From the NCBI GenBank assembly GCA_026713705.1, contig JAPONY010000053.1, positions 1 to 33,039 on the forward strand: a DNA stretch of 33,039 nucleotides. The letters run 5' to 3'. Both the position numbers and the translations under genes were made by a program. Shown here one piece after another: positions 3,785 to 30,277 of this stretch; the first letter of the stretch is position 1; each line of letters opens with the position of its first letter. The notes beneath the pieces were generated by a model, which saw only the letters and a program-made list of their open reading frames with translations, did no database searches and had not been told where the DNA came from. This DNA is from Gammaproteobacteria bacterium (GTDB lineage: Bacteria; Pseudomonadota; Gammaproteobacteria; Poriferisulfidales; Poriferisulfidaceae).

Positions 3785-6700
3785 TCAGGGCTTCAAATCA
3801 ATCTTCCATTCCTCCACAACCCTCTCAATATCCTCCTCCGGCAACTTGTCGTGCAGGAATCCCAAAAGATCCTCCTGTCGCGGTTGCCCAAAAACCAGCC
3901 GATACAGCGCCAGCCCTCGCTTCAGCCGAGCCAACTGTCCAACTTCCCGGCTATAGGACATAAGCGGCACTCTTCGTTCTACGCGCGTTCCACCTTCCTC
4001 GAAGATCCAGTATGGCACCAAGTCAGAAGTCCCATTCGAGCGATCTCTCACCGCCAAATCGAACATCACCTTCCAGGGGTCGGATGGAATTTCAGCAAGC
4101 CGGGATAACGCTTGCAGGCCATACGCCTCAGCCAGATTCTTCCGCACCGCATGCCCCTTAAAACGGTGTACGCGCCCTTCGCGCTGCTCCAGGTCAACAG
4201 GATTTGAAGGCAGATTCCAGTGCATCACCGCGTGACACCATGTATGGAAATCCAACCCTTCCTGCCCAACAGACGTTGAGGCGAGAATAAACGGCCGGAA
4301 CGGGGAATTGAATGCAGTCCTGACGACGTCAGCACGAGCAAGAGTCTGATCTTTATCGTCTTTCAGTTCACCAAACCGCAAAGCGAAACGTGAACGTACA
4401 TTGAAATCGCGGTGCACGACCTGCCCTTGATCTTCGTTTACTTGGTATTCATCCACCCGTACTTGGGCAGTCCGGATGGAGAGTGACCTAGCGAGAGCGC
4501 CTGCTGTTTCTTTTACCCGTTGGGCCGGGCTGACAGAAATTAATCCAAGGGCTTCCTGGAGGACATGTACCTGCTCGTCAAGCAGTGCCTGGAGATTCCC
4601 GTCAATACTGTATTGGAGAGCGCGTCTCCAGTAAGGCGTTTTCGAATCCTTCCCACGTAACAAACCAATCGACTCAGGCATGTTAAACAGCGTCCTGAAT
4701 CCCGATGCCCCGTGCGCTGCAGCAGAAAGTATGGCAAGGTCAGCAAGAGGGAATTCCGGCGGCACCACACGCCGCAACGCACGCAATACACAAACCCCAG
4801 GGCCGCCTAGAGCAAGTTCAGCGGCTACCCGGACGAGGTCAGAGGGAACCCTCCCTAGCGGCGGATCCAAACGGTTTTCTGCGGCTTCTACAAAATATTC
4901 AACATGCTCGGGGAAATGCATACCGGATTCATCCTCCGCGGCCGTTGCTATCCAGCCGCCCTCCTCTCTATCGCGGCACCAACCCACCGCCCCTTCACAC
5001 ATTTCCGCATCCAGCAGAATCGGCAGCGCCCAATACCATCTTTCGTCCTTGCGGCCGGTACGCGGATAACCTGCAGCAATGCGCCGCACTTCCGGGCGAA
5101 GCTTTTCCTCCGCAAGATTCAGGAGGCGACTGCGAGGTAATGGCGCTCCATTCCCGTGTTCGAGGGTCAAAGCCAAAGGATCTACGAGCGTCGCGAGAGA
5201 GGGAGAAGGATACAGGCGTGCGAGTGCATTCATTCCCGTCAGGCGTCCTTCGGTCTCTCGGGCGAATTGAAGAAGCGGCTTGATATCTTCATGGAGTTTC
5301 TCGCGCTCCAACTGTCTTCTCCGGCCCAACTTCGCGATCATCCGCCGCTCTGCCTCATAGGAACAGACAGTAGCAATAGCATCTGGAACAAGCGACCACG
5401 ATGAAAACACCAGCGATTTGGTCACGCTCCCAATATTTCGAAAAGACCCCGCTGGCTCTGAATACGGCATTGAGGGCGGCATCCACAGCAGTTTCCATAG
5501 GCCCCGATCCAGGGTGTCTGAAAAAAGGCTCCGCATGCGACTATTCGACGGGTCGAGCTCCTCGTAATTGTCGAGTCTCTCCCGTCCCAGCAGGCTACTG
5601 GCATCTCGCTTGAATGAATCCAGTACTGCGGGCGGAGGCCGTTTCGCCTTCTCCACCAAGTTTTCTCGTAGTTTGTAGTGTCGAAGAAAACTGAGTGCAT
5701 AGGGACTGGATTTCCAATATTCCAGAGAGTCTGGGGCGGACACAGCCTGGGCTAACGAATCGACGAGCCGAGCCTGACGCAAATCTGAGGCCGCAACTGT
5801 CGCAGGACGAGGTGGCTCCGCAAGCATTGCATCGCGAGTACAAGTCACGGCAACTCGTTCGGTTCGGCACATCACTCGGCGTAAGCCGCGCTCAAGGCTG
5901 CCCCGGGCGGCAATGACCGGATCAGCCCCCTCTTCACCAACAGCGTAAAGCGCCTTTCGGTAGCGGGCGATACCCTGCTCTATTGCCTTGACTGCGTTCG
6001 AGTCGTTATACAGGAATTCAAGAGTCTTCAGGAAATCAGGGTAATGATCGTCCTCTTGCTCATGATCGAGGGAAAGCATCTTGTAGGGCGTCGCCGACAG
6101 CAGCAACACCCTGACGTCCTCATAGCCAAAAAGCTTTTGAGCAAGCCTGGCTGCTTCGCTCTCCTCGCCCAACAATTCCCGGAAACGCTGGAATTCGTCC
6201 AAAATGACCAAGTCCGGCTTCAGGGCAACGATACACACTCGCGCAAGCGTATGCCGAAGACGCGCAATTAGGTCGAAGCAGGCATCCTTGAGTTCCCAGG
6301 GAACGTTCCTCAATCGCCGCCGGTCTGAAAAACGCTCGGAAAGTCGTTTGAGGTCATTCCGAAGATCCCGATCCTTACGGATCGCGCCGATGAATTGCTT
6401 GCGGATTTCCCGGTTCAGCCGCTTGTCCCAATGCTCGACATACCATTCCCAGTTTTCACGCCCAACCTCGCCTTGCAGCAAATTCAGCAACCCGCGAGTG
6501 TTTTGCCCCAATCCCGCTTTCTCCAACATCTTGAAGATGACGATCCGCTCGTCCATCCTCCCGCACCGGGATTTCAGGTCGAAAGAAGTCCCCGGCGTGA
6601 AGCTGACAAAGTTGACGTGCCGCTTCGACAGGTCGTGGACCTGGGTCGGCAGCAGCGTTAGGCGAGTGGCAACCGCAAAAGCCTCCTCTTTCCGAACATT

Positions 6701-6973
6701 GAGGCGGCGTACGTTCTGTTCCGCAATGGCGGCATTCGAACATACGTAGACGACGTTGATCCGATCCTCCTTGTCATGCAGGTGTTCGAGCATGCGCGCG
6801 ATGACACCCCGCGCAACCATCGTTTTGCCAAGCCCCACTTCATCGGCAACAAGAAAGCGTCGTCTTGAGGCACCGTTCGAATACAGCTGTTTGAAGGCAT
6901 GGTTGACGGTACGGAGCTGGAAATCCTTCAGGCCTTCGAGCACAGGCTTGGGATCAAACCGATTTCGTTCCAC
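3785..6973 (-). CDS. Large SF2 (SNF2/HepA-like) helicase of a defence-type trio
   Basis: This is a 1062-aa ATP-dependent SF2 helicase or translocase. Walker A is in ADEVGLGKT (residues 43-51), motif II is LVILDEFQRF (255-264), motif III LLLSATPYKM (290-299), and the C-terminal RecA lobe has SVGQEGLDF (about 901-909) and QREGRVHRF (930-938). About 550 residues separate the lobes, far more than in simple SNF2 proteins, which suggests a large inserted specificity or partner-binding region. The start is a GTG at 6973, 2 bp after the PLD stop, so the genes are translationally coupled. It is the last gene of the minus-strand trio. Such helicase plus PLD pairs recall the helicases of DISARM-like systems, but no methylase or DrmA/DrmB is present. 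Helicase identity is firm; the defence role is inferred from context. Confidence 0.9.
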   Translation of the reverse strand: MERNRFDPKPVLEGLKDFQLRTVNHAFKQLYSNGASRRRFLVADEVGLGKTMVARGVIARMLEHLHDKEDRINVVYVCSNAAIAEQNVRRLNVRKEEAFAVATRLTLLPTQVHDLSKRHVNFVSFTPGTSFDLKSRCGRMDERIVIFKMLEKAGLGQNTRGLLNLLQGEVGRENWEWYVEHWDKRLNREIRKQFIGAIRKDRDLRNDLKRLSERFSDRRRLRNVPWELKDACFDLIARLRHTLARVCIVALKPDLVILDEFQRFRELLGEESEAARLAQKLFGYEDVRVLLLSATPYKMLSLDHEQEDDHYPDFLKTLEFLYNDSNAVKAIEQGIARYRKALYAVGEEGADPVIAARGSLERGLRRVMCRTERVAVTCTRDAMLAEPPRPATVAASDLRQARLVDSLAQAVSAPDSLEYWKSSPYALSFLRHYKLRENLVEKAKRPPPAVLDSFKRDASSLLGRERLDNYEELDPSNSRMRSLFSDTLDRGLWKLLWMPPSMPYSEPAGSFRNIGSVTKSLVFSSWSLVPDAIATVCSYEAERRMIAKLGRRRQLEREKLHEDIKPLLQFARETEGRLTGMNALARLYPSPSLATLVDPLALTLEHGNGAPLPRSRLLNLAEEKLRPEVRRIAAGYPRTGRKDERWYWALPILLDAEMCEGAVGWCRDREEGGWIATAAEDESGMHFPEHVEYFVEAAENRLDPPLGRVPSDLVRVAAELALGGPGVCVLRALRRVVPPEFPLADLAILSAAAHGASGFRTLFNMPESIGLLRGKDSKTPYWRRALQYSIDGNLQALLDEQVHVLQEALGLISVSPAQRVKETAGALARSLSIRTAQVRVDEYQVNEDQGQVVHRDFNVRSRFALRFGELKDDKDQTLARADVVRTAFNSPFRPFILASTSVGQEGLDFHTWCHAVMHWNLPSNPVDLEQREGRVHRFKGHAVRKNLAEAYGLQALSRLAEIPSDPWKVMFDLAVRDRSNGTSDLVPYWIFEEGGTRVERRVPLMSYSREVGQLARLKRGLALYRLVFGQPRQEDLLGFLHDKLPEEDIERVVEEWKIDLKP

Positions 6974-6975
6974 TT

Positions 6976-8757
6976 CTAGCCCCTGCCCAGCGCTTTGTCG
7001 AACGTTGCCCAGAGTGCGCGGAATTCCTCAGGAATGAAGTTGTCGGAGTCTGTCTCTGATTCCAGTCGTTCCACGGCACCACGGATCTCATGCAGTCTGG
7101 TGGGGTCGCGGCTGAAAGCGCGAGTCATCTCCTCAAGCAGAGGCAAGACATCCTCGCCCTTGTCCGACCATTGCCCGCCAGCTCCCGATCCTATCCCGTC
7201 AATGTTCTGCCCCAAACCTCCATCGAATTCACCAAGCAGCAGAAGGAGATAACGTAAAAACCCTTCACGGTTCTTGAGGGCCGCACGCAGAATCGCAGCA
7301 TGTCGGCCTTCAGGCGGATCATCTAGCGGCAGATTCAATGTGAAACGTGTCTCCATGCCGTCCGGGTCGGATACGACTTCAAACGCGATGAGCCCAGTAA
7401 CCGACTGAAGGGAATAAGCCCCAAGATTTACGATCCCTCGACTCATGGACCCGAGCATGTTGACAGCATGTGTGTCTCGTACCGTAATCGGCCAAGCGCG
7501 AAGCGCCTTTACGCCTTGAAGGTCTATCGCCGTATTCCCACTGAGATTAAGTTGCCATTTCCCGCTACGGGTGTCTTCGACACACCCCACCCGGAATTTG
7601 GCTGCCGTCAAAGCTTCACGAACGCGATCACGTATCTTTTCCCCTTCCTCCTTTTTCGGATCAACTTCAGATTTCCCGTCCGAAGTCCAAGGCACGATGT
7701 ATTCACCAATTCCATCCTCACCAAGCAATGCATCAATTCCCCCTGTCCGGCTTCCAGCGAGTTCGGCGAAAAACTCGACGTTATGCCCGCCGACAAGTGC
7801 CGAAGTGGTCGCATTCGCCGATCCAACATAGACTCGGACCTTGTCCCCCTTCTCAGTCACGATGGCCTTGGCATGTAGTCCATACATGTCGTGCCCAGAC
7901 ATGTCCTCGCCATCATCGGATTCCACCGCATCATTGAGAATCTCGACCCGTTCGAACATTTCACCCAGGTCGCGTTCAAGCCCGTCGAGTTCCTCCGGGC
8001 GCGAAACGAGGGCTTCCGCTTTCTTGGTCGTCCCGGCAAGCGCCTTGAGAGCCGGAATAGTGACGAACGGCGAAACGACTGCCAGACGATCTGATTTCAT
8101 CGGCAACCACGACTTGCCTTGTATCACATGGAATCTCACTTCATCGAAACCCTCAGGCAATTCCCATTTGACACATGCAATCTCAGCGGAAAATTCTTTC
8201 GCCTGCTTACGCTTTCTGGCGGCGACGGTATTGATCGCAAGCGAAGGGAGACTGCGGACAAATTCGTAAAGTGGCTGATTTGCCGCTTGCGCCTTCTTTG
8301 TTAATTGCCCTTCGAGCTGCAAACACAAGTCCCAAGAGCGGTCAGCAGTAAGATTCCTGGACAGCACTAGCAGGCGAAAAATCGGGCCGCCTCCTTCCGA
8401 ATCCTTGAAGCGCAGCACCCAGACCTTAGGGTGAAAGGCTCCACCGCCCGGCGATGCTGCTTCCACAATCATTGGTTCAAGCAGGCTGAACAGTATTTGT
8501 TCTCCATCTGGAACCTGTATGCGCCCATACTGTGCATAGACCGTGATTCGATCGGCCACACGGTGAAGTGCTCCAAGAAGGTCGACAGGATCAGCCTCTC
8601 CGCCCTTTCTTCGCATCGTCAACCCAAGGTACACAGGTATCGTCAGCAACGTTGTGGGGTCCAGCGTATACGTCGTGCCTATTGCCTGGTCAAAAACATA
8701 GCCCCGCGGCGGCGTGAGCGCGTCGGTGTATAGGTTCCGGTCGCTGGGGTGCAACAT
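6976..8757 (-). CDS. Phospholipase D-family protein (probable nuclease)
   Basis: The 593-aa protein has two HxK half-sites of the PLD superfamily: FHPKVWVL (H109, K111) followed by LVLSRNLTADRSWD (130-143), and GLHAKAIV (H295, K297) followed by GSANATTSAL (312-321) with E328 downstream. The two half-sites should form one phosphodiesterase site; PLD enzymes in such bacterial operons are usually nucleases. No signal peptide or membrane segment is seen, so it is expected in the cytoplasm. It starts 3 bp after the DUF6361-like gene and ends 2 bp before the helicase, so all three are almost certainly co-translated and probably act as one complex, with the helicase opening or tracking DNA and PLD cutting it. 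Substrate and trigger are unknown. Confidence 0.88.
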   Translation of the reverse strand: MLHPSDRNLYTDALTPPRGYVFDQAIGTTYTLDPTTLLTIPVYLGLTMRRKGGEADPVDLLGALHRVADRITVYAQYGRIQVPDGEQILFSLLEPMIVEAASPGGGAFHPKVWVLRFKDSEGGGPIFRLLVLSRNLTADRSWDLCLQLEGQLTKKAQAANQPLYEFVRSLPSLAINTVAARKRKQAKEFSAEIACVKWELPEGFDEVRFHVIQGKSWLPMKSDRLAVVSPFVTIPALKALAGTTKKAEALVSRPEELDGLERDLGEMFERVEILNDAVESDDGEDMSGHDMYGLHAKAIVTEKGDKVRVYVGSANATTSALVGGHNVEFFAELAGSRTGGIDALLGEDGIGEYIVPWTSDGKSEVDPKKEEGEKIRDRVREALTAAKFRVGCVEDTRSGKWQLNLSGNTAIDLQGVKALRAWPITVRDTHAVNMLGSMSRGIVNLGAYSLQSVTGLIAFEVVSDPDGMETRFTLNLPLDDPPEGRHAAILRAALKNREGFLRYLLLLLGEFDGGLGQNIDGIGSGAGGQWSDKGEDVLPLLEEMTRAFSRDPTRLHEIRGAVERLESETDSDNFIPEEFRALWATFDKALGRG

Positions 8758-8760
8758 GGA

Positions 8761-9966
8761 TCAACCTCTTCTAAAGCCGTGAGCCAGATCCTCAAGACAT
8801 GTTTGCGCTATCGGCCAGCGGAAAGTCATCGGACGAATTCCGGCATAGCCGCTCCACTGTTCTCTCGCACGCGCGTTGACAAATCTGGATCGGTTCTTCT
8901 TGAGAGCCTGCTCACGCATCTGCACAAGACGTCGCGCTTCTTTATTGTCAACCACTCCATGTGGGTCCTCTCCCACATACTGCACCCATTTCTCGACAAA
9001 GCGACATGCCCCTGGTTTGATTGCATGGCGAGGATTTCTAACGACTCTCCATAGATCTGGAAGCGACCACTCGGAAATCACCCTTCCGTCGAGCTCACTT
9101 GCCCAGTCAGAAATTCCTACCCGGTGTTCATCGACAATATCCTCGCGACTATCTATTTCCGCAAGCATCAAGTTGTACAGAATTGCCGCTCCTCGCATAA
9201 CCTCGGAAAACAGTTGTGCATGTTGAAGCAACTCTCTGATAGATTCCGGGAAACGTGCCAGATCAGGATGCTCCCAAGGTCGGTCGGCACGGGCTCGTCG
9301 TTTTTCGCGAACCAACCAACCGAGCAAACTTTCGCCGGCAGCCGTCACGATGGCATCACAAAGAAATTCAGCCTCTTGCCGGGTTAGCGCAAAACTCAAT
9401 TCCCATGGGAAATTTTCAGGTGGGTCAGGGAGATGTGGATGCCATGTCAGAACATCGGACTCCTCGATTGCATCATCTCCATGAACATGAGTCTGCTTGC
9501 GGACTGCATATATTTGATCCAGAGAGCCAAAGTAGTCATTAATCGAGCCACCGAACCGGCGAATGCCCCAGTCTCCAAGACCCGCCCAGTAAACGTCGCT
9601 TGGAAGACGCTTGAGTCCCTGTCCTGCTCCCGCACCAAATGTTCCTAGCGAATCGTCGGATTCAGTCAATGGCTTGATTAACTGCAACTCAAAACGTCTC
9701 GCCCGCGCCTCAATTTCGCTGGATGGAATCCTCTGCATTTCAAGTTTCTTGAAGATCCACGGGATTATCAGCATGTAGCGCAATCGGGTTTGGATCGTAC
9801 TGGTCCCCGGAAACAGCCTGTCGGAGAACGAATCCCGAATCGCTCCCAGTCCCAGTTCGTCGCGACTGTCACGCTCCCCAAAGAGACCGATTATCTGGAG
9901 GCTTCGTTCTCGCGCGGCAGAATCATGATCGACCCACGCCAGCTTGGATTGTGCCTGATTTTTCAT
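8761..9966 (-). CDS. DUF6361-like protein, first gene of helicase/PLD trio
   Basis: I recognise the pattern of the DUF6361 family: SKLAWVDHD near the start, RDELGLGAIRDSFSDRLFPG, then TIQTRLRYMLIIPWIF, and a conserved-looking GLGDWGIRRFGG block. The function of the family is not known to me. It is predicted soluble and helix-rich. The ATG at 9966 was chosen; an in-frame GTG at 9984 is an alternative, and neither has a strong Shine-Dalgarno sequence. It precedes the PLD gene by 3 bp. A role in sensing or assembly for the PLD/helicase module is inference from this tight, ordered linkage. The AbiEii toxin gene ends 78 bp upstream on the same strand, so toxin-antitoxin and trio could share a transcript. 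Confidence 0.8.
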   Translation of the reverse strand: MKNQAQSKLAWVDHDSAARERSLQIIGLFGERDSRDELGLGAIRDSFSDRLFPGTSTIQTRLRYMLIIPWIFKKLEMQRIPSSEIEARARRFELQLIKPLTESDDSLGTFGAGAGQGLKRLPSDVYWAGLGDWGIRRFGGSINDYFGSLDQIYAVRKQTHVHGDDAIEESDVLTWHPHLPDPPENFPWELSFALTRQEAEFLCDAIVTAAGESLLGWLVREKRRARADRPWEHPDLARFPESIRELLQHAQLFSEVMRGAAILYNLMLAEIDSREDIVDEHRVGISDWASELDGRVISEWSLPDLWRVVRNPRHAIKPGACRFVEKWVQYVGEDPHGVVDNKEARRLVQMREQALKKNRSRFVNARAREQWSGYAGIRPMTFRWPIAQTCLEDLAHGFRRG

Positions 9967-10044
9967 CGCGCCAGTATTATCCACACTGCCGCATATTAGA
10001 TCGCTTCTCCTTCTCCTTCAGGCTCTCACTAGCAATGCCTCCTC

Positions 10045-10860
10045 TCATGGTTCTCCTTTCCACGGTGCGCCAGGCAGCAGCGCGATGAATTGCCCCGAAA
10101 CATCCCGGCTCGCTTCGTCTACGTTCCAGCGGCAACCTTGAGAAAGCAGGGGTTCGATATCAGCGCGGAAACGAGGGTCACGCAGCTTGATCGAGAGATT
10201 CCGTTCAAACTGAGCGCGAGTGACAGGGCTGCCGTTCCTCTCCATGTACGCCGTGAAAGCCGTGACCACGCGGCTGGCATCCACCCTCCCGCTCTCCAAT
10301 GCGCTCACTAAATCAAACAGGTCCCTCCCTTTCTTCCGCTGGTAGAGAGCCCTCAACTTCGTGGCGAGAATCTCGTCCAATGGATACGTGACGATATCCG
10401 AAGCCCCCCTGAACCAAGGCGAATCCACAGAGAAGAGGATTTTTTCAAACCCCAAAATGGAGAAGTGCTCGCGGGAATTGATCTCGACCTTCAGTCTCAT
10501 GCGCATGGACGGCGTGTTCTCTGACTCAAAACGATAAATGAGGGAAACACGGCCTCTCGTCTGTCTCCATTGAGGCTGGCCAAGCCACGGGTCGAGGACG
10601 TTGCGCAATGTATTCATGATGGGGCCGGCAGGGCCGGCATTTATTTGCACGAGGTCAATATCTTCAGAGTAGCGGACGGCCGACTTCAGGTGAAGCTTAT
10701 GAAGTGCGGTGCCGCCACGGAATGCCAGACCATCGGCCAATGCGGGCTCAGAGAATATTTCCACCAACGCTCTGCTCAGCACCAAGTCCTGCTCGACTTG
10801 AAAATCCTGAATCCAAGGCGCTTGGGACCTCCATGCGGTGATATGGTCGTGGGGAATCAC
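10045..10860 (-). CDS. abiEii: AbiEii-type toxin, nucleotidyltransferase
   Basis: This 271-aa protein is the toxin of a type IV AbiE system. The nucleotidyltransferase signature is clear: FRGGTALHKLHL (GG at 49-50, followed by TAL) and RYSEDIDL (63-70), the DxD metal and nucleotide site. The family includes phage-abortive AbiEii and the mycobacterial MenT enzymes, which transfer nucleotides and, in some members, modify tRNA. The start is a GTG at 10860 that overlaps the antitoxin stop by 4 bp (GTGA), giving translational coupling. A 5' fragment of a second copy lies at 13213-13399. Length and motifs are complete, so it is probably active. Confidence 0.93.
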   Translation of the reverse strand: MIPHDHITAWRSQAPWIQDFQVEQDLVLSRALVEIFSEPALADGLAFRGGTALHKLHLKSAVRYSEDIDLVQINAGPAGPIMNTLRNVLDPWLGQPQWRQTRGRVSLIYRFESENTPSMRMRLKVEINSREHFSILGFEKILFSVDSPWFRGASDIVTYPLDEILATKLRALYQRKKGRDLFDLVSALESGRVDASRVVTAFTAYMERNGSPVTRAQFERNLSIKLRDPRFRADIEPLLSQGCRWNVDEASRDVSGQFIALLPGAPWKGEP

Positions 10861-11666
10861 AAGTCCACCTCAATTTCCGCATTGACATAGAGCCGCCAGT
10901 CTTTCGCGCGACGCGCCCGCCCCTTGGGAAGCCCGGGAACCAGCAGTACGGTTCCTTGTGCGCGCTGCCTGATATAGTCCTTAAGGGGCAATGCCTTGTC
11001 CACCGCACCAACCACTTCCAACAAGTGACCCAATCGTTGTGCCCAGGTAATGGGAGCGGTCCGCGCTGCGGCAACGAGAAGCTCCGGCGAAATGTCACCG
11101 GCAAGTTCGCAGAAAATCGTGGCCACATGGTCCAGCCCTCCAACGCGATGCGCGTAGCCGACCAAATCAAGCGCCGTCGCCTCAATGCTTGAGACTTGGA
11201 TCGACCCCCGTGGCGTATTGATCTCCCGGACCGGCACCTCGGAAATATTCTTTCGGGCGACAAAAGAAACCCTTACAGTTCCGCAGGAAATTGGGCGACG
11301 ATTCTTGGCGAGCGCAACCTGGAATACTTGGGGCCGATGATGTGCCGCACCATGATATTCGGCGGCAGACAAGAGAGCCGCGTAGTAGATCCGTCCCGAT
11401 TTTTCCATGAGAGCCGGAATGAACTGGTCTGCCGGCAAACACCCCAAACGCCGGTATTCAGGCGGCACGATGACGTAGAAGCCTCGCGCAGGGCTTGCGA
11501 TCATCCCCTTTTTTGCCAGCCGGGTGAGCGCGGTCCGCGCTGCGGCAGATGAACCGCCAGTCATCGAGCGCATTTGCTCTGCCGTGAAATGGTATCGGCC
11601 GCTCGCCGCGAATTCGTCTATGACTTCCGCAGCCCTGAGTTTAGGAGATAACTTTTCCACATGCAT
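10857..11666 (-). CDS. abiEi: AbiEi-type antitoxin, transcriptional autoregulator
   Basis: The 269-aa antitoxin has an N-terminal winged-helix region (residues about 10-70, AARTALTRLAKKGMIASPARGFYVI in two parts) and the usual AbiEi C-terminal domain, with RIYYAALLSAAEYHGAAHH and SIEATALDLVGYAHRVGGL. AbiEi proteins bind inverted repeats in their own promoter and neutralise AbiEii. The ATG at 11666 is followed by an uninterrupted frame; the region just upstream (11667-11720) is AT-rich, as expected for the promoter. The last 25 residues are duplicated as a relic near 13386-13460. Confidence 0.93.
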   Translation of the reverse strand: MHVEKLSPKLRAAEVIDEFAASGRYHFTAEQMRSMTGGSSAAARTALTRLAKKGMIASPARGFYVIVPPEYRRLGCLPADQFIPALMEKSGRIYYAALLSAAEYHGAAHHRPQVFQVALAKNRRPISCGTVRVSFVARKNISEVPVREINTPRGSIQVSSIEATALDLVGYAHRVGGLDHVATIFCELAGDISPELLVAAARTAPITWAQRLGHLLEVVGAVDKALPLKDYIRQRAQGTVLLVPGLPKGRARRAKDWRLYVNAEIEVDL

Positions 11667-11906
11667 ATAGTATCATTATTAGATGATATTTGCAGGTAAA
11701 AAACATACTTTAGCAGGATAGTCGATTATAAAATTTTCCGCTTGGCATCACCTGAGACAGTCACACCAAATCCGGAAGCCCCTTTGACTTCTGGGACACG
11801 ACACCGATGCACATCACTTCTTCGTCAATGATGCCCGGGGGATCAAAAAGATTTTCAAAGACAGGAGACCGTGGCAATCACGGTGCGCTTGCCATTCGCC
11901 ACACCC

Positions 11907-12323
11907 TCAACTTCCGTGCAGGACTTCGATTCGGTCTTTCCAGGGTGAATTTCGAACCTGATCGGCAAAATCGATGTCTGCGGTAATCAGCCGCGTCTTC
12001 TGGTCTTCGGCGAGCGCAAGGTACAGGCAATCATAGACCGAATGGTCCAGAACGCACGCCATCTCAAAAGCTGTTTCATGCAACTGTGCAGAGGAAACCA
12101 GCGACTCGAACCATCGGGGCAAGGCTTGAAGAAAGGCGACCGCCTGTTGCTCCTGAATGTCTTTGCGCCGCACTTTTTTCCAAGCCACATTCGCACACTC
12201 TGCAAGGATCATGTCTGGAGCGAAAAAAACGGTATCCGATTCCGCCACCTTTCGGGCCGCATCCGACAGGCTTTCCTCAAAAAACCACCCGCACGCGACA
12301 CTCGCGTCGATGACCCGGTTCAT
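11907..12323 (-). CDS. VapC-like PIN-domain toxin ribonuclease
   Basis: This is a 138-aa PIN-domain protein, the usual length for VapC. The acidic residues are in place: D6 (NRVIDASVA), E42 (MILAECANV), D98 (VYDCLYLALA) and D116 (LITADIDFA). VapC toxins are Mg-dependent endoribonucleases that cut tRNA or rRNA. The ATG at 12323 overlaps the antitoxin stop by 4 bp (ATGA), so translation is coupled. The frame runs open upstream into the antitoxin gene, but that part is only the other reading frame of vapB. About 240 bp without a recognisable gene separate it from abiEi. Confidence 0.93.
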   Translation of the reverse strand: MNRVIDASVACGWFFEESLSDAARKVAESDTVFFAPDMILAECANVAWKKVRRKDIQEQQAVAFLQALPRWFESLVSSAQLHETAFEMACVLDHSVYDCLYLALAEDQKTRLITADIDFADQVRNSPWKDRIEVLHGS

Positions 12324-12829
12324 CGACTGTCGCGGTCTTCGCGCAGGAGTTGCACGCTGTCCTGCTGAATGCCCGGACTCATGGCTCGAATCCGGTCCGC
12401 CTCGGCAAGCAAGTCTCCCCGGTCCTGGACCGCCGCGCGGCGCAGAATGTTTCTGAGTTCCTGCTCCAGGGAACACCCCTTCCGCTTTGCCTTCCGTTTC
12501 AGCTGAACCACAATCTCGGCGTCCAGGCCGCGGACGATGACCTGCGAGGAGCCTTTTCCGGAAGAGTGCTCAGCGGAAGATCCCTCTCGCTCGCCGACAC
12601 GAACGAAGTGGACGATCCCTTTTTCGAGACGGGGCCGCCGAACCCGCCACCCGGAGCGCATCCAACTACGGGCCTGCACATGACTTTCGTCATTTGCCCA
12701 CCAAGACCTGCGTTTGGCGCTCGCGGGTAGAGACGCACCAATGATTTCCTCAACCTGGGAAAAAGTCAGCATGCAGAAATCAGCCTGTTGCTGAGATAGA
12801 TATTCTCCCAGCGAACCATATTTGCTCAT
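12320..12829 (-). CDS. Fusion antitoxin: DUF7662-like domain plus FitA/VapB-type RHH
   Basis: The 169-aa protein is about twice the length of a normal VapB. Residues about 88-169 are a FitA-like antitoxin: a ribbon-helix-helix start (SQVIVRGLDAEIVVQLKRKA), SLEQELRNILRRAA, then an acidic tail for toxin binding. Residues 1-77 match a small domain I know as DUF7662, usually found alone: YGSLGEYLSQQQ, LTFSQVEEIIGASLPASA, and WWANDESHVQARSWMRSGW. Its function is unknown; it may add DNA or ligand recognition. The Shine-Dalgarno GAGAG lies about 9 bp before the ATG. The vapC gene overlaps by 4 bp. A pair of direct repeats just upstream looks like an operator. Confidence 0.85.
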   Translation of the reverse strand: MSKYGSLGEYLSQQQADFCMLTFSQVEEIIGASLPASAKRRSWWANDESHVQARSWMRSGWRVRRPRLEKGIVHFVRVGEREGSSAEHSSGKGSSQVIVRGLDAEIVVQLKRKAKRKGCSLEQELRNILRRAAVQDRGDLLAEADRIRAMSPGIQQDSVQLLREDRDSR

Positions 12830-13212: not shown

Positions 13213-13463
13213 CTTCAGGTGAAACTTATGAAGCGCGGGACTGCCACGGAATACCAGACCCTCGGCCAATACGGGCTCAGAGAATATTTCCACCAACGCC
13301 CTGCTCAGCGCCAAATCCTGCTCGACTTGAAAATCCTGAATCCAAGGCCCCCGGGACCTCCATGCGGTGATAGGGTCGTGGGGAATCACAGGTCCACCTC
13401 AATTTCCGCATTGACATAGAGCCGCCAGTTTTTCGCACGATGCGCCCGCCCCTTGGGAAGGCC
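13213..13463 (-). pseudogene. Partial duplicate of the abiEi/abiEii junction
   Basis: These 251 bp match 10684-10934 without gaps at about 92% identity (19 or so differences counted by eye). They contain the last 25 codons of an AbiEi antitoxin (ending VNAEIEVDL) and the first 60 or so codons of AbiEii (GTG start, ending at FHLKIVG). The rest of both genes is absent, and in the toxin part the GGTAL motif has become GSPAL, so it cannot be functional. The fragment has the same orientation as the intact pair, with vapBC between the two copies. It indicates a past tandem arrangement or recombination between two related abiE loci. Confidence 0.9.
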
Positions 13464-13680
13464 GAGGGGGTCTGCCTCCGACACCGTTTCCCGATCCGCA
13501 TCAACTATCCGGGGGCTTTCTGCCTGCTTGCCCAGGCGGGCGGCCTGAAGGTCTCGGCCCCGCTCGGGCGCTCCTCCGAATTGACCATCAGGACCAGTTC
13601 GCTTGCCGCAATCTCGACCGACCCAGAATTCAATTAACCAACGACATCTGTGTGTGTGTGGTAGTCCGAAGGTCGGGGCA

Positions 13681-13686
13681 TATAAT
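13681..13686 (+). promoter_or_regulatory. -10 box candidate for the MNT/HEPN operon
   Basis: A perfect TATAAT lies 20 bp before the ATG at 13706. The expected -35 region near 13658-13663 is a TG-repeat tract with no good consensus, so the promoter may be weak or activated. It is preceded by a short TGTGTGTGTG run. Confidence 0.45.
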
Positions 13687-13705
13687 TCCTGATCGCAGCC
13701 TCGCA

Positions 13706-14023
13706 ATGCCGACACTAAATCACATGGTCGCACAAATCCCAATTCCACCAGATGAGATCATCGCGCTTTGTCGCCGGTACCATATCCGGCACCTCGCTCT
13801 CTTTGGTTCAGTCTTGCGAAGTGATTTCACGCCAAACAGTGACGTGGATATCTTGGTGGAGTTCGCCCCAGGCAAGGTACCCGGTCTTGGATTTATAGAC
13901 ATTCAGGATGAACTGTCGGCATTGGTCGGGCGAAAGGTTGATCTGAATACTCCCGGTTTTTTGAGTTCTCGTATCCGGCAGAATGTGATGGAGCAGTCGG
14001 AAACCATTTATGGCACGCCGTGA
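13706..14023 (+). CDS. mntA: MntA-like minimal nucleotidyltransferase antitoxin
   Basis: The 105-aa protein has the pol-beta-type minimal nucleotidyltransferase motif GSVLRSD (34-40) followed by SDVDILVEF (45-53), with the paired aspartates D46 and D48. In type VII toxin-antitoxin systems MntA AMPylates its HEPN partner on a tyrosine and so neutralises it. The ATG at 13706 was preferred because it follows a TATAAT box; an ATG at 13724 is possible. The toxin gene overlaps the 3' end by 14 bp. The frame is open to 13652, but the upstream residues look non-coding. Confidence 0.9.
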   Translation: MPTLNHMVAQIPIPPDEIIALCRRYHIRHLALFGSVLRSDFTPNSDVDILVEFAPGKVPGLGFIDIQDELSALVGRKVDLNTPGFLSSRIRQNVMEQSETIYGTP

Positions 14024-14354
14024 CCCGATCGGACCAATCATTGATATGCGCGACCATGCCCGGGAGGCTGTTGCGTTAATTGGAAGCTGCTCACGTGAGG
14101 ATTTGGATGCCAACAGGGTATTGGTGCTAGCCCTGAGAAAATTGGTGGAGAGAATTGGAGAGGCCGCGTACCGGGTTCCAAAGAAATTCCAGGATGATCA
14201 TCCGGAAATCGTATGGGAGAAAATCGTCGGCATGCGCAATCGCCTAGTCCACGGATATGATGCAGTCGATTTGGATGTTTTGTGGAGCGTTGTCGAAAAC
14301 GATCTGCCCAGTCTTATTGCCCGGATAGAACCCTTCATAGAAAATCGCTCATAG
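14010..14354 (+). CDS. hepT: HepT-like HEPN toxin (DUF86)
   Basis: This 114-aa all-helical HEPN protein carries the RNase motif R-x4-H followed by Tyr: GMRNRLVHGYD, with R76, H81 and Y83. In known HepT proteins the Rx4HxY motif is both the catalytic site and the place where MntA adds AMP to the tyrosine. Upstream, LRKLVERIGEAAYRVP is the typical conserved helix of the family. The length is normal and all key residues are present. It overlaps mntA by 14 bp, so expression is coupled. Confidence 0.93.
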   Translation: MARRDPIGPIIDMRDHAREAVALIGSCSREDLDANRVLVLALRKLVERIGEAAYRVPKKFQDDHPEIVWEKIVGMRNRLVHGYDAVDLDVLWSVVENDLPSLIARIEPFIENRS

Positions 14355-15943: not shown

Positions 15944-16012
15944 CATCAAGCAAATCTACAGAATTCCGAGCCATGGACGGCATGGGAATTTCAACGGTCC
16001 GGAACCACAGAA
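15944..16012. repeat. Imperfect dispersed repeat, copy B
   Basis: This is the partner of the repeat at 13103-13171, same orientation, about 78% identical with one single-base gap. The core GCCATGGACGGC is at 15970-15981. It lies between the decayed CCDC90-like gene and the primase-helicase gene, about 100 bp upstream of the latter's start. Confidence 0.6.
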
Positions 16013-16068
16013 GGCCCCTCCCGCTCTCGTCTCCACACTGTGACGCTAAGCCCGAGCACTGTAAACTG

Positions 16069-16093
16069 AACCAAACCGCATCGCTTGGTTTTT
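16069..16093 (+). terminator. Hairpin with short T-run before the primase-helicase gene
   Basis: AACCAA (16069-16074) pairs with TTGGTT (16085-16090) and is followed by three further T residues. It lies 18 bp before the ATG at 16111. The stem is short, so it may be a weak terminator, an attenuator-like leader structure, or chance. Confidence 0.25.
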
Positions 16094-16110
16094 CGGACCG
16101 TACTTTCGAG

Positions 16111-18570
16111 ATGAGCGACAAAACGCCCCCTCTATCATCCGACCATCCGTCAGATCAGGACGACGTTCCGGCCATCAGGAAACGCCTTGCCGAACTCTCT
16201 GCCGAGCAGCGCGAACTGGAAGCACAGCTTGCCGACCTGACCCGTCGGCCATCACTCAGGCATCGCTCTGCCGCTCCCGGCAGACGAATTACCCGTGCAT
16301 CTTCCTCGGCAGAAAAAATCGCCCTGTTCCGCTCCCTGTTCCGGGGACGGGAGGATGTCTTCCCCAAGCGCTGGATCAACTCGAAAAGCGGAAAATCAGG
16401 CTATTCGCCAGTTTGCGCCAACGAATGGAAAGCCGGGCTTTGCCGCAAGCCGGCCATCAAATGCGGGGAATGCCCCAACAGCGCCTTCATTCCGGTGGCC
16501 GACTCGATCATCGAGCAGCACCTGCGCGGAAGCGACGAAAAAGACCGGGATTTCACGGTAGGCGTCTACCCCATGCTGCCCGACGAAACCTGCTGGTTTC
16601 TGGCTGCCGACTTCGACGGAGGTGCATGGCACCGCGATGCCTCCGCCTTTCTCGAAACCTGTCAAATTCGGAATGTCCCCGCTTCCCTTGAGCGCTCCCG
16701 TTCCGGAAGCGGCGGTCATGTCTGGATCTTCTTCGCGGAGCCCATCCCGGCCGCCACAGCGCGACGCTTCGGCACACGGATCCTAGCCGAAACCATGGAG
16801 CGCAGGCCGGAGGTCGGATTCGCCTCCTACGACCGCCTCTTCCCCAGCCAGGACACCCTACCGAATGGTGGATTTGGAAACCTGATCGCCCTCCCCCTGC
16901 AGAATCGACCCAGACGGGCAGGCCACAGCCTGTTCGTGGATGAGAAATGCCAACCCTACGCGGATCAATGGGAATACCTATCTTCGATACGACGCCTGAC
17001 CTTGCAGGAAATAGCCGCCTGCCTGGATGAGACCCAATCACCAGGGTTCCTCCCCGGTGTACGCCTGCCCGTGGACGAGGAGGAGGACGAAGAGCCTTGG
17101 CTGATTCCGCCATCCCGAAAAAAGCCCGGCCTCCCCATAACCGGCCCTCTGCCGGAAACGATCGACATGGTGCTGGGGGACCAGATGTACATTGCTCGGA
17201 ACGGTCTCCCCCCGACCCTGGCGAACCGGCTTCTTCATCTGGCCGCGTTCCAAAACCCGGAATTCTACAAGGCACAGGCCCTGCGGCTATCCACATTCGG
17301 GATTCCCCGGATCATCGGATGCGCCGAACTGCACTCGCGGCATATTGCCCTTCCTCGCGGCTGCCTCGACCAGGCCGAATCTCTATTGTCTTCGCTGGGC
17401 ATCCGGGTTGCGCTCAGCGACAAGCGCAATCCCGGCCATCCTGTTCAGGCATCTTTCCTCGGTGAACTGACGCCGCAACAGCAGACGGCAAAAGACTCCC
17501 TGTTGCCACACGACACCGGAGTCCTGGCGGCAACCACCGCTTTCGGAAAAACCGTCGTCGCCGCCTCCGTCATCGCCGCCCGAAAAACGAATACCCTGAT
17601 TCTCGTCCACCGCCGCCAACTTCTCGATCAGTGGGTCGCGCGACTCCAGACTTTTCTAAACATCTCCAGCGGCGAGGTTGGAACCATCGGCGGCGGCACC
17701 CGAAAGCCCGGCGGCTTCGTCGATGTTGCAATCATCCAGAGTCTCGTCCGAAAAGGCGAAGTCGATGATCTCGTCTCGGATTACGGTCAACTGATCGTCG
17801 ACGAATGCCATCACTTGGCGGCTGTGAGCTTCGAGGCAGTCGCGCGTCGTTGCAGGGCCCGTTATGTTCTCGGGCTGTCCGCCACGGTCACGCGAAAGGA
17901 TGGTCATCATCCCATCATCTTCATGCAGTGCGGCCCGGTACGTTATCGCGCGGACGCTCGGGAACAAGCCTCCCGGCTGCCATTTGCCCATCGGGTGGAT
18001 ATCCGGCACACCGGATTCGCCCCTCCTCTGGAAATGGCCGACGAACAGCCGTCCATCCAACAGATCTACGCCGCCCTGACCCGAAGCGAGCAACGAAACG
18101 ACATGATCTTCAACGACGTACTGTCGGCCCTTGAGGCCAAACGCTCGCCCCTGGTCCTGACCGAACGGCGGGATCATGCGCTTCATCTGGCCGAAAGGCT
18201 TGCGCCCTTCGCCCGCAATGTCATCGTCCTGCATGGCGGCATGGGAGTGAAGGCAAGGCGGATTGCGATGCGGAAACTGGAAGACGTCGGAGACCGGGAA
18301 GAGCGACTGCTGATTGCCACGGGCCGCTACATCGGCGAGGGCTTTGATGACGCCCGGCTGGATGCACTGTTCCTGACCATGCCGGTTTCCTGGCGTGGAA
18401 CCCTCGCCCAATATGCCGGCCGCCTGCACCGAATCCATCCGGGCAAACGCGAGGTCGTCATTTACGATTATGTCGATGATGCCGTACCTATGCTGGCCCG
18501 CATGAGTGGTAAGCGGGTGAAGGGCTATGCCAGTTTGGGCTACTCGGTCAACGGTCTCCAGGCATCATAG
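16111..18570 (+). CDS. TOTE-type archaeo-eukaryotic primase fused to SF2 helicase
   Basis: The 819-aa protein has a coiled-coil start (residues 18-45), a cysteine cluster (C102, C111, C118, C121) that could bind zinc, and an archaeo-eukaryotic primase domain with the acidic motif LAADFDGG (D167, D169) and the second motif SGSGGHVW (198-205). After a linker comes an SF2 helicase: TTAFGKT (475-481), LIVDECHH (561-568), LGLSATVTRK (588-597), IGEGFDD (741-747) and QYAGRLHR (767-774). This architecture is the one annotated as the TOTE conflict-system primase; such proteins are proposed to act against invading DNA. The ATG at 16111 was chosen because the upstream in-frame residues are not family-like. 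Unlike many relatives, no obvious partner gene is adjacent. All key motifs are present, so it is probably active. Confidence 0.92.
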   Translation: MSDKTPPLSSDHPSDQDDVPAIRKRLAELSAEQRELEAQLADLTRRPSLRHRSAAPGRRITRASSSAEKIALFRSLFRGREDVFPKRWINSKSGKSGYSPVCANEWKAGLCRKPAIKCGECPNSAFIPVADSIIEQHLRGSDEKDRDFTVGVYPMLPDETCWFLAADFDGGAWHRDASAFLETCQIRNVPASLERSRSGSGGHVWIFFAEPIPAATARRFGTRILAETMERRPEVGFASYDRLFPSQDTLPNGGFGNLIALPLQNRPRRAGHSLFVDEKCQPYADQWEYLSSIRRLTLQEIAACLDETQSPGFLPGVRLPVDEEEDEEPWLIPPSRKKPGLPITGPLPETIDMVLGDQMYIARNGLPPTLANRLLHLAAFQNPEFYKAQALRLSTFGIPRIIGCAELHSRHIALPRGCLDQAESLLSSLGIRVALSDKRNPGHPVQASFLGELTPQQQTAKDSLLPHDTGVLAATTAFGKTVVAASVIAARKTNTLILVHRRQLLDQWVARLQTFLNISSGEVGTIGGGTRKPGGFVDVAIIQSLVRKGEVDDLVSDYGQLIVDECHHLAAVSFEAVARRCRARYVLGLSATVTRKDGHHPIIFMQCGPVRYRADAREQASRLPFAHRVDIRHTGFAPPLEMADEQPSIQQIYAALTRSEQRNDMIFNDVLSALEAKRSPLVLTERRDHALHLAERLAPFARNVIVLHGGMGVKARRIAMRKLEDVGDREERLLIATGRYIGEGFDDARLDALFLTMPVSWRGTLAQYAGRLHRIHPGKREVVIYDYVDDAVPMLARMSGKRVKGYASLGYSVNGLQAS

Positions 18571-25494: not shown

Positions 25495-28400
25495 TTACAA
25501 CTCATGCACCTGTACCGCCCCTTTCAGCCGTTTCGATTGCTTGACAACCTGCGAATGATGAGTAAATAGGATGACTTGTATTTTTTCGGCTAATTCAGCT
25601 AAGGCATTCAATGCTGCTTGTGAACGAGCATCATCAAAGTCCACAAGTACATCGTCTACAATGAAAGGCATCGGTTCTGCACTTTCTACATATTTTTCAA
25701 GAGAAGCCAAGCGCAACGCCAAATAGAGTTGATCTCGCGTTCCTGAACTCATACCTTCCACGTACACTCGTTCTCCCCCTGAGCGAATGCCAGCGAGGAT
25801 GGGCTCATCCCTTTCATTAAAATCGGTCATAAGTGCATCAAACGACCCAAGTGTTAGCGTCGAAAAATGTTCACTGGCGCGCTTGACTAGGGGGCCCTGA
25901 TTCTCTTTGCGATAACACTCAATCCGGTTGCGTAAGATCTTGCCAGCGAGTTTCGCTTGAACATAACGTTCGACATTTGAGCGAATACCAGCGAGAATGA
26001 TATTGGCCTGATCAGCGAGTGCCGCCGCATGATCGCCACCATCCATGAGTTCCAGTTCCTTTTCTTCGCGTCCTTTTGCCTCCGCAAGATCGGTTCGCTT
26101 GGGCTCAAGCTCATCCTCGATGAGATTGCTTAACTCTTTAATTTTTGCAAGCAATATATCTGGATCTATTCCCTCCGCTTCAGCCTCCAATTCTGCAATG
26201 GGTACACCTTCGCCTGTCTCCAAGATCTCTTGCTCAACTGTATTGATTGCCGCCTTGATTTGAAGATAATCAGCCGACCTCTGCGCCACCACTTCGAGTT
26301 CATCTTGGCTATCACATTTCGCCTCTACGCATAATGTGCCAATCCGATCTTTCATGGCCTGAATGGAGACCATCGAATCCTGTATATCCTGTTTTGCTTG
26401 TTCGATCTGTTCTTCAATTTGTTTCCGTTTAATCTGTCTCGATCGGTTTTCCGACAGCAGTGAATTGAGACGCATCACTGCATCATCTGGAAGCAAGTCG
26501 CCAAGTTCTGGGGCAATCGTGGCAACCATATTTTCTACCTCACTAGAGAAAGCATCTGCATCTTCATTGATCGCATTGATGCGTATACGTAATTTTTTCG
26601 CCTCATCCTGTTTAGAGAACAGGACTCTGACGTTTTCGATGAAATCGCTAACCTCTGATGGTGAGGAATCGATCTGAAGGCCAAAATCCCGCATCAGCTC
26701 ATTCCACTGTATCTTCCATGTTTCAAACTCTTCTGTTACCAGCCTATACTCTTCAGTCAATAATTCAACATTAGTTGCCTGGCTCTCAACCTCATTATCT
26801 AGAAAATCACGTTTGTGTTTAGCGTCATCAAGTTGCTTTACAATCTCTTCACATTCCAAAAGTACGGTTTCGATCTCCTCAGCAATTGCGCGCTCTTTCC
26901 CTAGCTCTTCCAACTGCTGATCAAGCCGCCGGATATGCGTGTTACGACTCTGTTCAAGCTCGCTCACTTTCTGGCGGAGCAGATTTAATTGTCCGACCTG
27001 ATCACGAAGCTTCTCAAATTCATGTAACCAAGCACGCATCTCTCGTGGAGTCTGTGGGACAATTTGACAAGGTACCCATAATTCCAGCCAATCAGCATCA
27101 AGCTGATCTTTTTCAGTGTTAATTGCCTCTAGTTGTTCGGCCATCTCATCTGCTTGCCGCTGCGCAGCTTCCCGCTTGGCCTGAAGGCTTGCTAATTCGT
27201 GGACCCGGTCCGTCTCACGGCGTAAGCGATCAGACACCATATCGGCGCTAGCAACGCTATTTTCGAATACATCCGGCAATGTTTCTCCCTTCAGGTAGTC
27301 ACTTGCGTCGGCTGACACATCCTCGCCATCGACCCACTTCCGGCGCAGTAACTGCCATACTTTATCGCGCTCGGATCTAGCCTTGGAAAGGGCCGCCTCC
27401 GTAGGCACCTCCCCCACACGCTTGATCTCATCAAGTCTCTGCGAAGTATCTTTCAAGGAGTCAATTACATCTTCTCTTCTCTCTTCAAACCGCTGGAATC
27501 GTTTCTCAAGTTCGAGATATGTCTCTTCAAATCTATTGATGCTTTCTTGATGGGGTAACTCTAATCCAACTAAATCTTCCAATTCACCGCTCCAAAGTGT
27601 AAGGCGTGAGAGATCAGCAGCACATTCTTCCTGTAGGTTTACGAGTTGGTTATGAGTAGATTCGATTGAGACATCCAATTCACCCTGTTTCCTAGCTGCA
27701 GCAATTACTCGGTGCAATGCGTCCGTAGAGCCCGATTCGAGAATCCCATCGCGCTCCTTGCGGGCGATCTTCAAACTATTTTTTGCCTCACGCAAACTAG
27801 ACTTTACCTGTTCTAAAGAAGTATTCAATACGACATTTTTGTTACTTAATTCGGTAACTACCTGCCGCTTTGCCAATACGGGGCGCAGTTCCTCCATATC
27901 CTCCAATGCAAGATCAGGGCGAATTTCTTTGAGTATAGATTTAGCATCTGTCAGTAATTGTTGACCTTCCGCTTCAAGATGCGGGCGATCTTGTAGTGCC
28001 TTTCGATGTCCGCCCAGACGTGCATGGATATTTTCAATGTTCTCTGCCTGATCCAATAACCTCTGGTTTGTTAATAGTCCTCCAAGCTGTTTCTGTAGTT
28101 CTTCAAGGCGAGGAATTGTCTTTCCAACTGTGCCCTGATGTGTCTCCAGCTCATTTGCCGCTTCCTGGCAGCGACCTACAAAATCATCCGGGAGGACGAC
28201 CACATCTCCCAAAGATTCCAGTTCCTGAAAAAACTTACGGCGCCGTGCAAATTTCGGTAAAACCCGTTGGATACGTTGCAAACGATTCACCTCGACTCTG
28301 CTGTTCGCCAGTTCAACTTCAATTTTTTTCAGTTCTTGCATCGTCCGCCTCAAAGCACGGCGATGCTTATCCCATTCTCTGGATGAAAGAGAACATCCCT

Positions 28401-28983
28401 TAATCTCCTTGTTGATCTCAGCATACGACTTCAGTGCTGCATTGATCGTCTGTGTTGATCCTCTAGGCCGAAAAAGATCACTGGCTTCATCATCAAGTTG
28501 TGTTAGGACGGTATGTAGCGCATGACTGCCAAGCGCTGCCGAAAAAAGCGCCTTCCCAACTTCTCCTCTCTGTTGCAGAATTTCCTGCCCTCCTTTCACT
28601 AAAGCCTGATGGTCAATCCCAAAAAGTGTCTCGAAGAGTTCCAGAGTCACGCCTTGAAGGAAGGGCGCCAGTACCTGTTCATCAAGTACCTCGCCATCGG
28701 GAGTTAATAGAGTATTTTTTCGACCTTTGCGTCGAACGAGCATGAGTTCATGCCCATCAGTTGTCTGCAAACAACCATGAATACGCAGCTTGTCATTGGC
28801 ATGAAGAAAATTGTCTTGAGTTCGTTCTTCAAAACCATAAAGCAGGGCTTTTAAACCCCGCAAGGATGCACTCTTTCCTGCCTCATTGGGGCCATAAACG
28901 ACATGTAGACCCCTCTCATCAAAAGCCAATGCCCTATCAGTGAAAGGGCCAAATGCAACAAGATTCAATTCGTCTATTCTCAT
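25495..28983 (-). CDS. YhaN-like SMC/Rad50-type ATPase
   Basis: The 1162-aa protein has an N-terminal ATPase half with Walker A GPNEAGKS (31-38) and YhaN-specific flanks (LKALLYGFEERTQDNF, LFETLFGIDHQALVKGG). About 700 residues of heptad-rich coiled coil follow, then a C-terminal half with the ABC signature MSSGTRDQLYLALRLAS, Walker B MPFIVDDVLVDFDD and the H-loop LFTHHSQ. I find no CxxC hook in the coiled coil, which is also the case for many YhaN proteins. It pairs with the YhaO-like nuclease 6 bp upstream in the operon, like SbcC with SbcD or Rad50 with Mre11. The role is likely DNA-end processing or defence. The gene is AT-rich against the core, suggesting transfer. Confidence 0.92.
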   Translation of the reverse strand: MRIDELNLVAFGPFTDRALAFDERGLHVVYGPNEAGKSASLRGLKALLYGFEERTQDNFLHANDKLRIHGCLQTTDGHELMLVRRKGRKNTLLTPDGEVLDEQVLAPFLQGVTLELFETLFGIDHQALVKGGQEILQQRGEVGKALFSAALGSHALHTVLTQLDDEASDLFRPRGSTQTINAALKSYAEINKEIKGCSLSSREWDKHRRALRRTMQELKKIEVELANSRVEVNRLQRIQRVLPKFARRRKFFQELESLGDVVVLPDDFVGRCQEAANELETHQGTVGKTIPRLEELQKQLGGLLTNQRLLDQAENIENIHARLGGHRKALQDRPHLEAEGQQLLTDAKSILKEIRPDLALEDMEELRPVLAKRQVVTELSNKNVVLNTSLEQVKSSLREAKNSLKIARKERDGILESGSTDALHRVIAAARKQGELDVSIESTHNQLVNLQEECAADLSRLTLWSGELEDLVGLELPHQESINRFEETYLELEKRFQRFEERREDVIDSLKDTSQRLDEIKRVGEVPTEAALSKARSERDKVWQLLRRKWVDGEDVSADASDYLKGETLPDVFENSVASADMVSDRLRRETDRVHELASLQAKREAAQRQADEMAEQLEAINTEKDQLDADWLELWVPCQIVPQTPREMRAWLHEFEKLRDQVGQLNLLRQKVSELEQSRNTHIRRLDQQLEELGKERAIAEEIETVLLECEEIVKQLDDAKHKRDFLDNEVESQATNVELLTEEYRLVTEEFETWKIQWNELMRDFGLQIDSSPSEVSDFIENVRVLFSKQDEAKKLRIRINAINEDADAFSSEVENMVATIAPELGDLLPDDAVMRLNSLLSENRSRQIKRKQIEEQIEQAKQDIQDSMVSIQAMKDRIGTLCVEAKCDSQDELEVVAQRSADYLQIKAAINTVEQEILETGEGVPIAELEAEAEGIDPDILLAKIKELSNLIEDELEPKRTDLAEAKGREEKELELMDGGDHAAALADQANIILAGIRSNVERYVQAKLAGKILRNRIECYRKENQGPLVKRASEHFSTLTLGSFDALMTDFNERDEPILAGIRSGGERVYVEGMSSGTRDQLYLALRLASLEKYVESAEPMPFIVDDVLVDFDDARSQAALNALAELAEKIQVILFTHHSQVVKQSKRLKGAVQVHEL

Positions 28984-28989
28984 CCTTGC

Positions 28990-30255
28990 CTACGTCCCTT
29001 TCTCCGTGGACAACAAGCGATTAACGAGAAGTTCCTTAATTTCCCCCAAAGTACCGTTGAGTACATCTGGATTGATTGGATCATAAGGATCATCGCCACC
29101 CAAGAGTTCGGCTGGAAGCTTCTGGCGAAGCGCGAAGATCTCATCGGAGAGTTCGTCTAGAGCCGATGCATCAAATTCCATATCGTGGATGGAACGCAGC
29201 AGACCACTTAATGCATCGTCGCGTTCAAGGAACTCATCAGTGGAGGCAGGCGACTTTGTTTTGATAGAAACCTGCTCCAACCAGATTCCAGAACCGCTAA
29301 GCCCGGACCCCAAAGCTCGATACTCCTGAATCCAGTGTTCACGGTCTACATGCAATGCCGAATGCGCCGAGCAAACTCCTTGTAGGATTAGACGTACTGC
29401 TACCAGCCTTTCTTCGGCAGCATCTAGTGTAGCCTGCAACTCCTCTCGAACTTGCTCATAAACATCATCCACTGTCTCACTGACAGAAACATCAATCTCA
29501 CATAAAGCCCAACGCATTACGTCCAGATTGCGATGTTCCACCTCCACGATCTCATTGCTTTCGACTGTGACCAAAGTACAACCCTTTGCTCCTACTTCCC
29601 GGATATGCCGTCCCTGAATATTCCCAGGGAAGACAATCCATGGATCCCGGCTCACCTCTTCCCGTTTATGAATGTGACCAAGTGCCCAGTATTGGTAACC
29701 TTTGGATCGCAGTCCTTCGACAGTGCAAGGCGCATAGGGCTTATGCCCTGGCTTGCCATCCAGACAAGTATGCAACAATCCAATGTTTAAGAGTTGCGGG
29801 TCACCTTGTGGATATGACTGAGACAAATCATCTGTTACTGCCCGCGTAGCGAAACTCTGCCCATATACCGCGACATTCAGATCATCTAGAGTTACTTGCT
29901 CTGGGCTCTTGGCTGAAAACAGCTTGACATTTTCCGGCAATCGAAGGTGTTTGGTGATTTGGCTGGGGGCATCATGGTTTCCAGCCACGATGAAAACACG
30001 GATACCTGCCTCTTGCAGCCTCCCCATCCGCTCTACAAAATAGAGGCCTGTGTTGTAATCTTTCCAATCACCGTCATACAGGTCTCCGGCTAGCAGCACA
30101 AATGCCACTCCCTCTTCAATCGCCAGATCTACCAAGTTGTCAAAAGCGCGACGAGTGGCGCTGCGAATCTCATCAACCGGAGCACCTTCATAAAATTCTA
30201 ATCCATACAGCGCACTATCAAGGTGGATATCGGCTGCATGTATAAAACAGAACAT
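28990..30255 (-). CDS. YhaO-like Mre11/SbcD-family nuclease
   Basis: The 421-aa calcineurin-like phosphoesterase shows all metal motifs: HAADIHLDS (D9, H11), LLAGDLYDG (54-62), GNHD (92-95), LLHT (159-162) and GHIH (192-195). The family acts as Mn-dependent double-strand exonuclease/single-strand endonuclease with an SMC-type ATPase partner, here the YhaN-like protein encoded next. The ATG at 30255 was chosen because MFCFIHAADIHLD is the normal start; the frame is open 120 bp further upstream but that overlaps the preceding gene. It begins 22 bp after the upstream ATPase gene, so all three share an operon. Confidence 0.92.
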   Translation of the reverse strand: MFCFIHAADIHLDSALYGLEFYEGAPVDEIRSATRRAFDNLVDLAIEEGVAFVLLAGDLYDGDWKDYNTGLYFVERMGRLQEAGIRVFIVAGNHDAPSQITKHLRLPENVKLFSAKSPEQVTLDDLNVAVYGQSFATRAVTDDLSQSYPQGDPQLLNIGLLHTCLDGKPGHKPYAPCTVEGLRSKGYQYWALGHIHKREEVSRDPWIVFPGNIQGRHIREVGAKGCTLVTVESNEIVEVEHRNLDVMRWALCEIDVSVSETVDDVYEQVREELQATLDAAEERLVAVRLILQGVCSAHSALHVDREHWIQEYRALGSGLSGSGIWLEQVSIKTKSPASTDEFLERDDALSGLLRSIHDMEFDASALDELSDEIFALRQKLPAELLGGDDPYDPINPDVLNGTLGEIKELLVNRLLSTEKGT

Positions 30256-30277
30256 GGATAAACCTTCTGTATACCGA

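Follow-up and report, generated by a model that had tools for sequence, protein, structure and literature searches.

The window analyzed here is a 33,039-nucleotide stretch of a gammaproteobacterial contig (JAPONY010000053.1). Its minus strand carries three genes, all with open and complete reading frames, separated by only 3 bp (zacA–zacB) and 2 bp (zacB–zacC), as the initial annotation had described. The first gene of the operon, zacA (8761–9966), encodes a DUF6361 protein of 401 amino acids if translated from the ATG at 9966. A longer reading (8761–9984, 407 amino acids) would begin with the GTG at 9984; the ATG is the better fit to homologues. The middle gene, zacB (6976–8757), encodes a 593-residue member of the phospholipase D (PLD) superfamily, a probable nuclease with both HxK half-sites intact. 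The third, zacC (3785–6973), encodes an SF2 ATPase of 1,062 residues with a predicted Swi2/Snf2-type dsDNA-translocase core.

PADLOC profiles of the Azaca system matched all three proteins nearly end to end: ZacA with 445 bits (residues 12–404 of the 407-residue reading), ZacB with 569.7 bits (residues 1–591 of 593), and ZacC with 1166.5 bits (residues 6–1062). The DUF6361 assignment of the first gene was confirmed by Pfam (PF19888, 245.6 bits). ZacA, ZacB with both HxK motifs, and ZacC with motifs I, II, III, and VI are each present at full length, encoded by adjacent genes in the order A-B-C on a single strand. Judged by sequence, the trio is almost certainly a complete and intact-looking copy of Azaca (zacABC), an anti-phage system of the catalogues. 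It has the same three full-length proteins, order, strand, and catalytic residues, and sequence divergence is the sole difference at the level of the system; the closest relative found shares no more than 55% identity with ZacC. The initial annotation had presented the trio as a compact defense candidate outside described systems and had named a profile match to such a system as the outcome that speaks against it, which is the outcome obtained. What stands of that proposal is a nuclease–helicase defense operon that differs from both DISARM and Mokosh and lies in an accessory, defense-rich region; its novelty does not. The trio is already known as a system, and this ordinary find needs no new name.

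Azaca was among the PLD-containing systems of Millman et al. 2022 (PMC10952713), and ZacC has been named as its helicase (PMC12278908). Given that a 2026 review enters the mechanism of Azaca as unknown (PMC12926258), the invariant residues described below are direct targets for mutants. The present analysis supplies a motif-complete, intact copy of the operon together with a comparison set of 88 loci. A scan of genome contigs retrieved 418 ZacA relatives, from which the best 80 of 418 were kept, and eight further loci came from plasmid and phage collections. Across this set, zacA, zacB, and zacC occur in order, on the same strand, and nearly touching in 82 of 88 loci, and in most of the loci consecutive genes share a few bases. 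For the remaining six, the rest of the contig is too small for zacC, with zacB also cut short in one (L014). Every locus with room for the trio keeps the A-B-C order. Plasmids of Cronobacter and rhizobia carry homologues, as does the archaeon Halomarina. No viral contig was confirmed. A divergent but full trio with 27–32% identity is present on a contig from the human gut (L013:11998-18272) that was deposited as phage but may be bacterial DNA. At another locus (L005, G238:C6:238358-239137), there is a far more divergent DUF6361 protein (59.7 bits) and, after it, a ZacB-like protein with 26% identity; the pair perhaps represents a remote branch of Azaca.

The catalytic residues of ZacB and ZacC are strictly maintained. 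The two HxK motifs of ZacB are H109/K111 and H295/K297, and these four residues, along with G312, S313, and N315, are the same in all 61 of 61 sequences, confirming the earlier call of an intact two-HxK protein. From its motifs, ZacB is a probable nuclease with a putative DNA substrate, although lipases and transferases belong to the PLD superfamily as well. In ZacC, the SF2 motifs I (GLGKT, 47–51), II (DEFQ, 259–262), III (SAT, 293–295), and VI (QREGRVHR, 930–937) are all present, in line with the initial call of a 1,062-residue SF2 helicase, and are invariant in 57 of 57 sequences. The predicted structure of ZacC (pLDDT 85.6) has as its best structural match a Swi2/Snf2 ATPase (Z 16.9 over 446 residues). 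Among the 50 matches listed, all are Swi2/Snf2-family chains (Z 14.6–16.9), with 393–461 residues aligned in all but one. The model is consistent with a Swi2/Snf2-type dsDNA translocase built on two RecA lobes. A very large insertion had been placed between these lobes. As drawn from motif positions and predicted secondary structure, the insert is helical and comes in two pieces: a smaller one is indeed located between the lobes (residues ~310–510), but the larger interrupts lobe 2 between motifs IV and V (residues ~550–880).

ZacA is predicted to be all-helical (pLDDT 87.9) and bears a strictly conserved N-terminal block, DELG...RD...FPGTSTIQTR, with no recognized enzyme motif. Structural comparison of the model with solved structures produced nothing convincing (best Foldseek E value, 0.79; best VIA-align Z, 3.4), and searching the ZacA profile against solved structures returned chance-level matches only. 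The missing match for the predicted fold does not prove a new fold.

The trio resides in accessory island DNA rich in defense genes. Neither the five same-genus genomes nor any of the 54 other relatives searched carry PF19888; across the phylum, 5 of 398 genomes contain it, including that of the window itself. Comparison of the window with four genomes of the genus recovered an ordered shared core only from 18869 (or 18875) to 25413, plus a 200-bp piece in one genome. A housekeeping locus is ruled out by the absence of the trio from the five same-genus genomes and its position outside this core. The accessory first 18.8 kb holds the trio, an AbiE pair, PIN/RHH and MNT-HepT genes, and a TOTE primase-helicase.

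The toxin–antitoxin pair that had been noted upstream of the trio on the same strand is AbiEi/AbiEii by both Pfam and PADLOC. A five-gene system in which AbiE guards or regulates the trio could be imagined from the shared strand, the distance of only ~60 bp, and the lack of a promoter-like site between the two, although that scan carries little weight (1 site found versus 3.6 expected by chance). In tblastn, however, not one of the other 88 Azaca loci has an AbiE homologue beside it, which makes such a system highly improbable, and AbiE was rejected as an Azaca component in favor of a purely local neighbor.

The surroundings of the trio offer several further observations. At the AbiEi/AbiEii junction, 252 bp (10684–10935) recur 2.5 kb away at 13213–13464 with 92% identity and are what is left of a second AbiE copy. 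A PIN toxin with an RHH antitoxin (11907–12829) and an MNT-HepT pair (13652–14354) are also present, and the window therefore contains several toxin–antitoxin modules side by side. At 15973–18570, still within the accessory region, one gene encodes an archaeo-eukaryotic primase of the TOTE type fused to an SF2 helicase. Farther along (25495–32845) are genes for an AAA_27 ATPase, a calcineurin-like phosphoesterase, and an AAA_13 protein, the last of which matches the candidate defense family PDC-S06 with 698 bits. Approximately 140 bp preceding an IS110 transposase (2223–2363) have 94% copies on three further contigs of the same genome, and the contig ends (1–138 and 32901–33038) are identical 138-bp inverted repeats. 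A 23-nt inverted repeat (2059–2081 and 11762–11784, 87%) brackets IS110, the trio, and AbiE; weighed as the possible ends of an element, it proved to be the best of 19 chance-like pairs and was set aside.

The initial annotation had likened the trio to the nuclease–helicase logic of DISARM or Mokosh while observing that their defining partners are missing, and the operon indeed lacks DrmA, DrmB, a methylase, and an SF1 helicase. DISARM resembles Azaca in combining a Snf2-like helicase (DrmD) with a PLD protein (DrmC), and what would favor reading the trio as a DISARM variant rather than as a system of its own are the weak, partial scores that PADLOC gives ZacC against DrmD (52 bits) and ZacB against DrmC (20 bits). 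The Zac profiles, however, score more than 20 times higher and over the full length of the proteins, and neither DrmA, DrmB, nor a DNA methylase was detected among the trio or the neighbors scanned with Pfam and PADLOC, where matches to DrmD, DrmA, and DrmC were weak and partial. Mokosh likewise pairs a PLD domain with a helicase, but the Mokosh helicase belongs to a different superfamily, and no Mokosh (Mko) model matched ZacB or ZacC in PADLOC at E ≤ 0.001. Membership in DISARM or Mokosh is refuted by the profile scores, and we regard a variant of either as having next to no chance of being correct.

For Azaca itself, we infer that the three proteins act together. ZacC would load onto invading double-stranded DNA and move along it; the two HxK halves of ZacB would form one active site and cut the invading DNA; and ZacA would serve as an adaptor or sensor that licenses the ZacB–ZacC pair. 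Because the operon is without a methylase, host DNA would presumably be spared through a complex that responds to how the DNA is structured or to the state of the phage (ends, forks, or damage) and not to a missing base modification. We give this scheme of translocation by ZacC, cutting by ZacB, and licensing by ZacA roughly even chances. More tentatively, ZacA could be a new kind of sensor of DNA or phage state that controls a Snf2 translocase paired with a PLD nuclease in a system devoid of DNA modification, a suggestion we hold to be possible but doubtful.

The main alternative is that Azaca works in the manner of Hachiman: ZacC would sense damaged or replicating phage DNA and free ZacB, ZacB would degrade all DNA of the cell, and the infected cell would die instead of being cured. 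An SF2 ATPase and a nuclease with no modification enzyme resemble HamAB, and ZacC has been compared with HamB among defense helicases (PMC12278908). Hachiman shares with Azaca the union of a nuclease and an SF2 helicase in a methylase-free operon but comprises two genes, uses another nuclease family, and has no ZacA. With ZacB of PLD type and ZacC of Snf2 type by predicted fold, the pairing is a different one, and we consider an abortive, Hachiman-like outcome conceivable yet rather unlikely. The overall account, a complete Azaca operon in an accessory defense island together with the proposed ZacABC mechanism, we judge to be probable.

Some Azaca loci, mostly from Alphaproteobacteria, combine the same zacABC core with an extra PD-(D/E)XK nuclease and UvrD helicase, an AddAB-like pair that was not found in the window. 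Across the 88 loci, a UvrD helicase gene precedes zacA on the same strand in 27, is missing from 50, and was not assessable in 11. All but one of the 27 encoded helicases are >60% identical to that from Bradyrhizobium, and in two loci a gene lies in between. The PD-(D/E)XK nuclease gene was also seen in 21 of the UvrD-bearing loci, and no PADLOC model fits this nuclease. The pair is often accompanied by a divergent WYL gene, encoding a regulator. Loci with the pair group in one mostly alphaproteobacterial part of the ZacC tree, with five changes of state. Within 289 alphaproteobacterial genomes, the pair occurs in seven, and ZacABC follows it in two of these. On plasmids, it also adjoins Shango, a CBASS cyclase/E1-E2 set, and type III restriction-modification genes. 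Exemplified by L007:1916-7983 and by L104, L105, L107, L108, and L109, the AddAB-like pair is possibly a portable accessory module, and its recurrence next to Azaca and these other defense systems is the part of this analysis most deserving of separate study.
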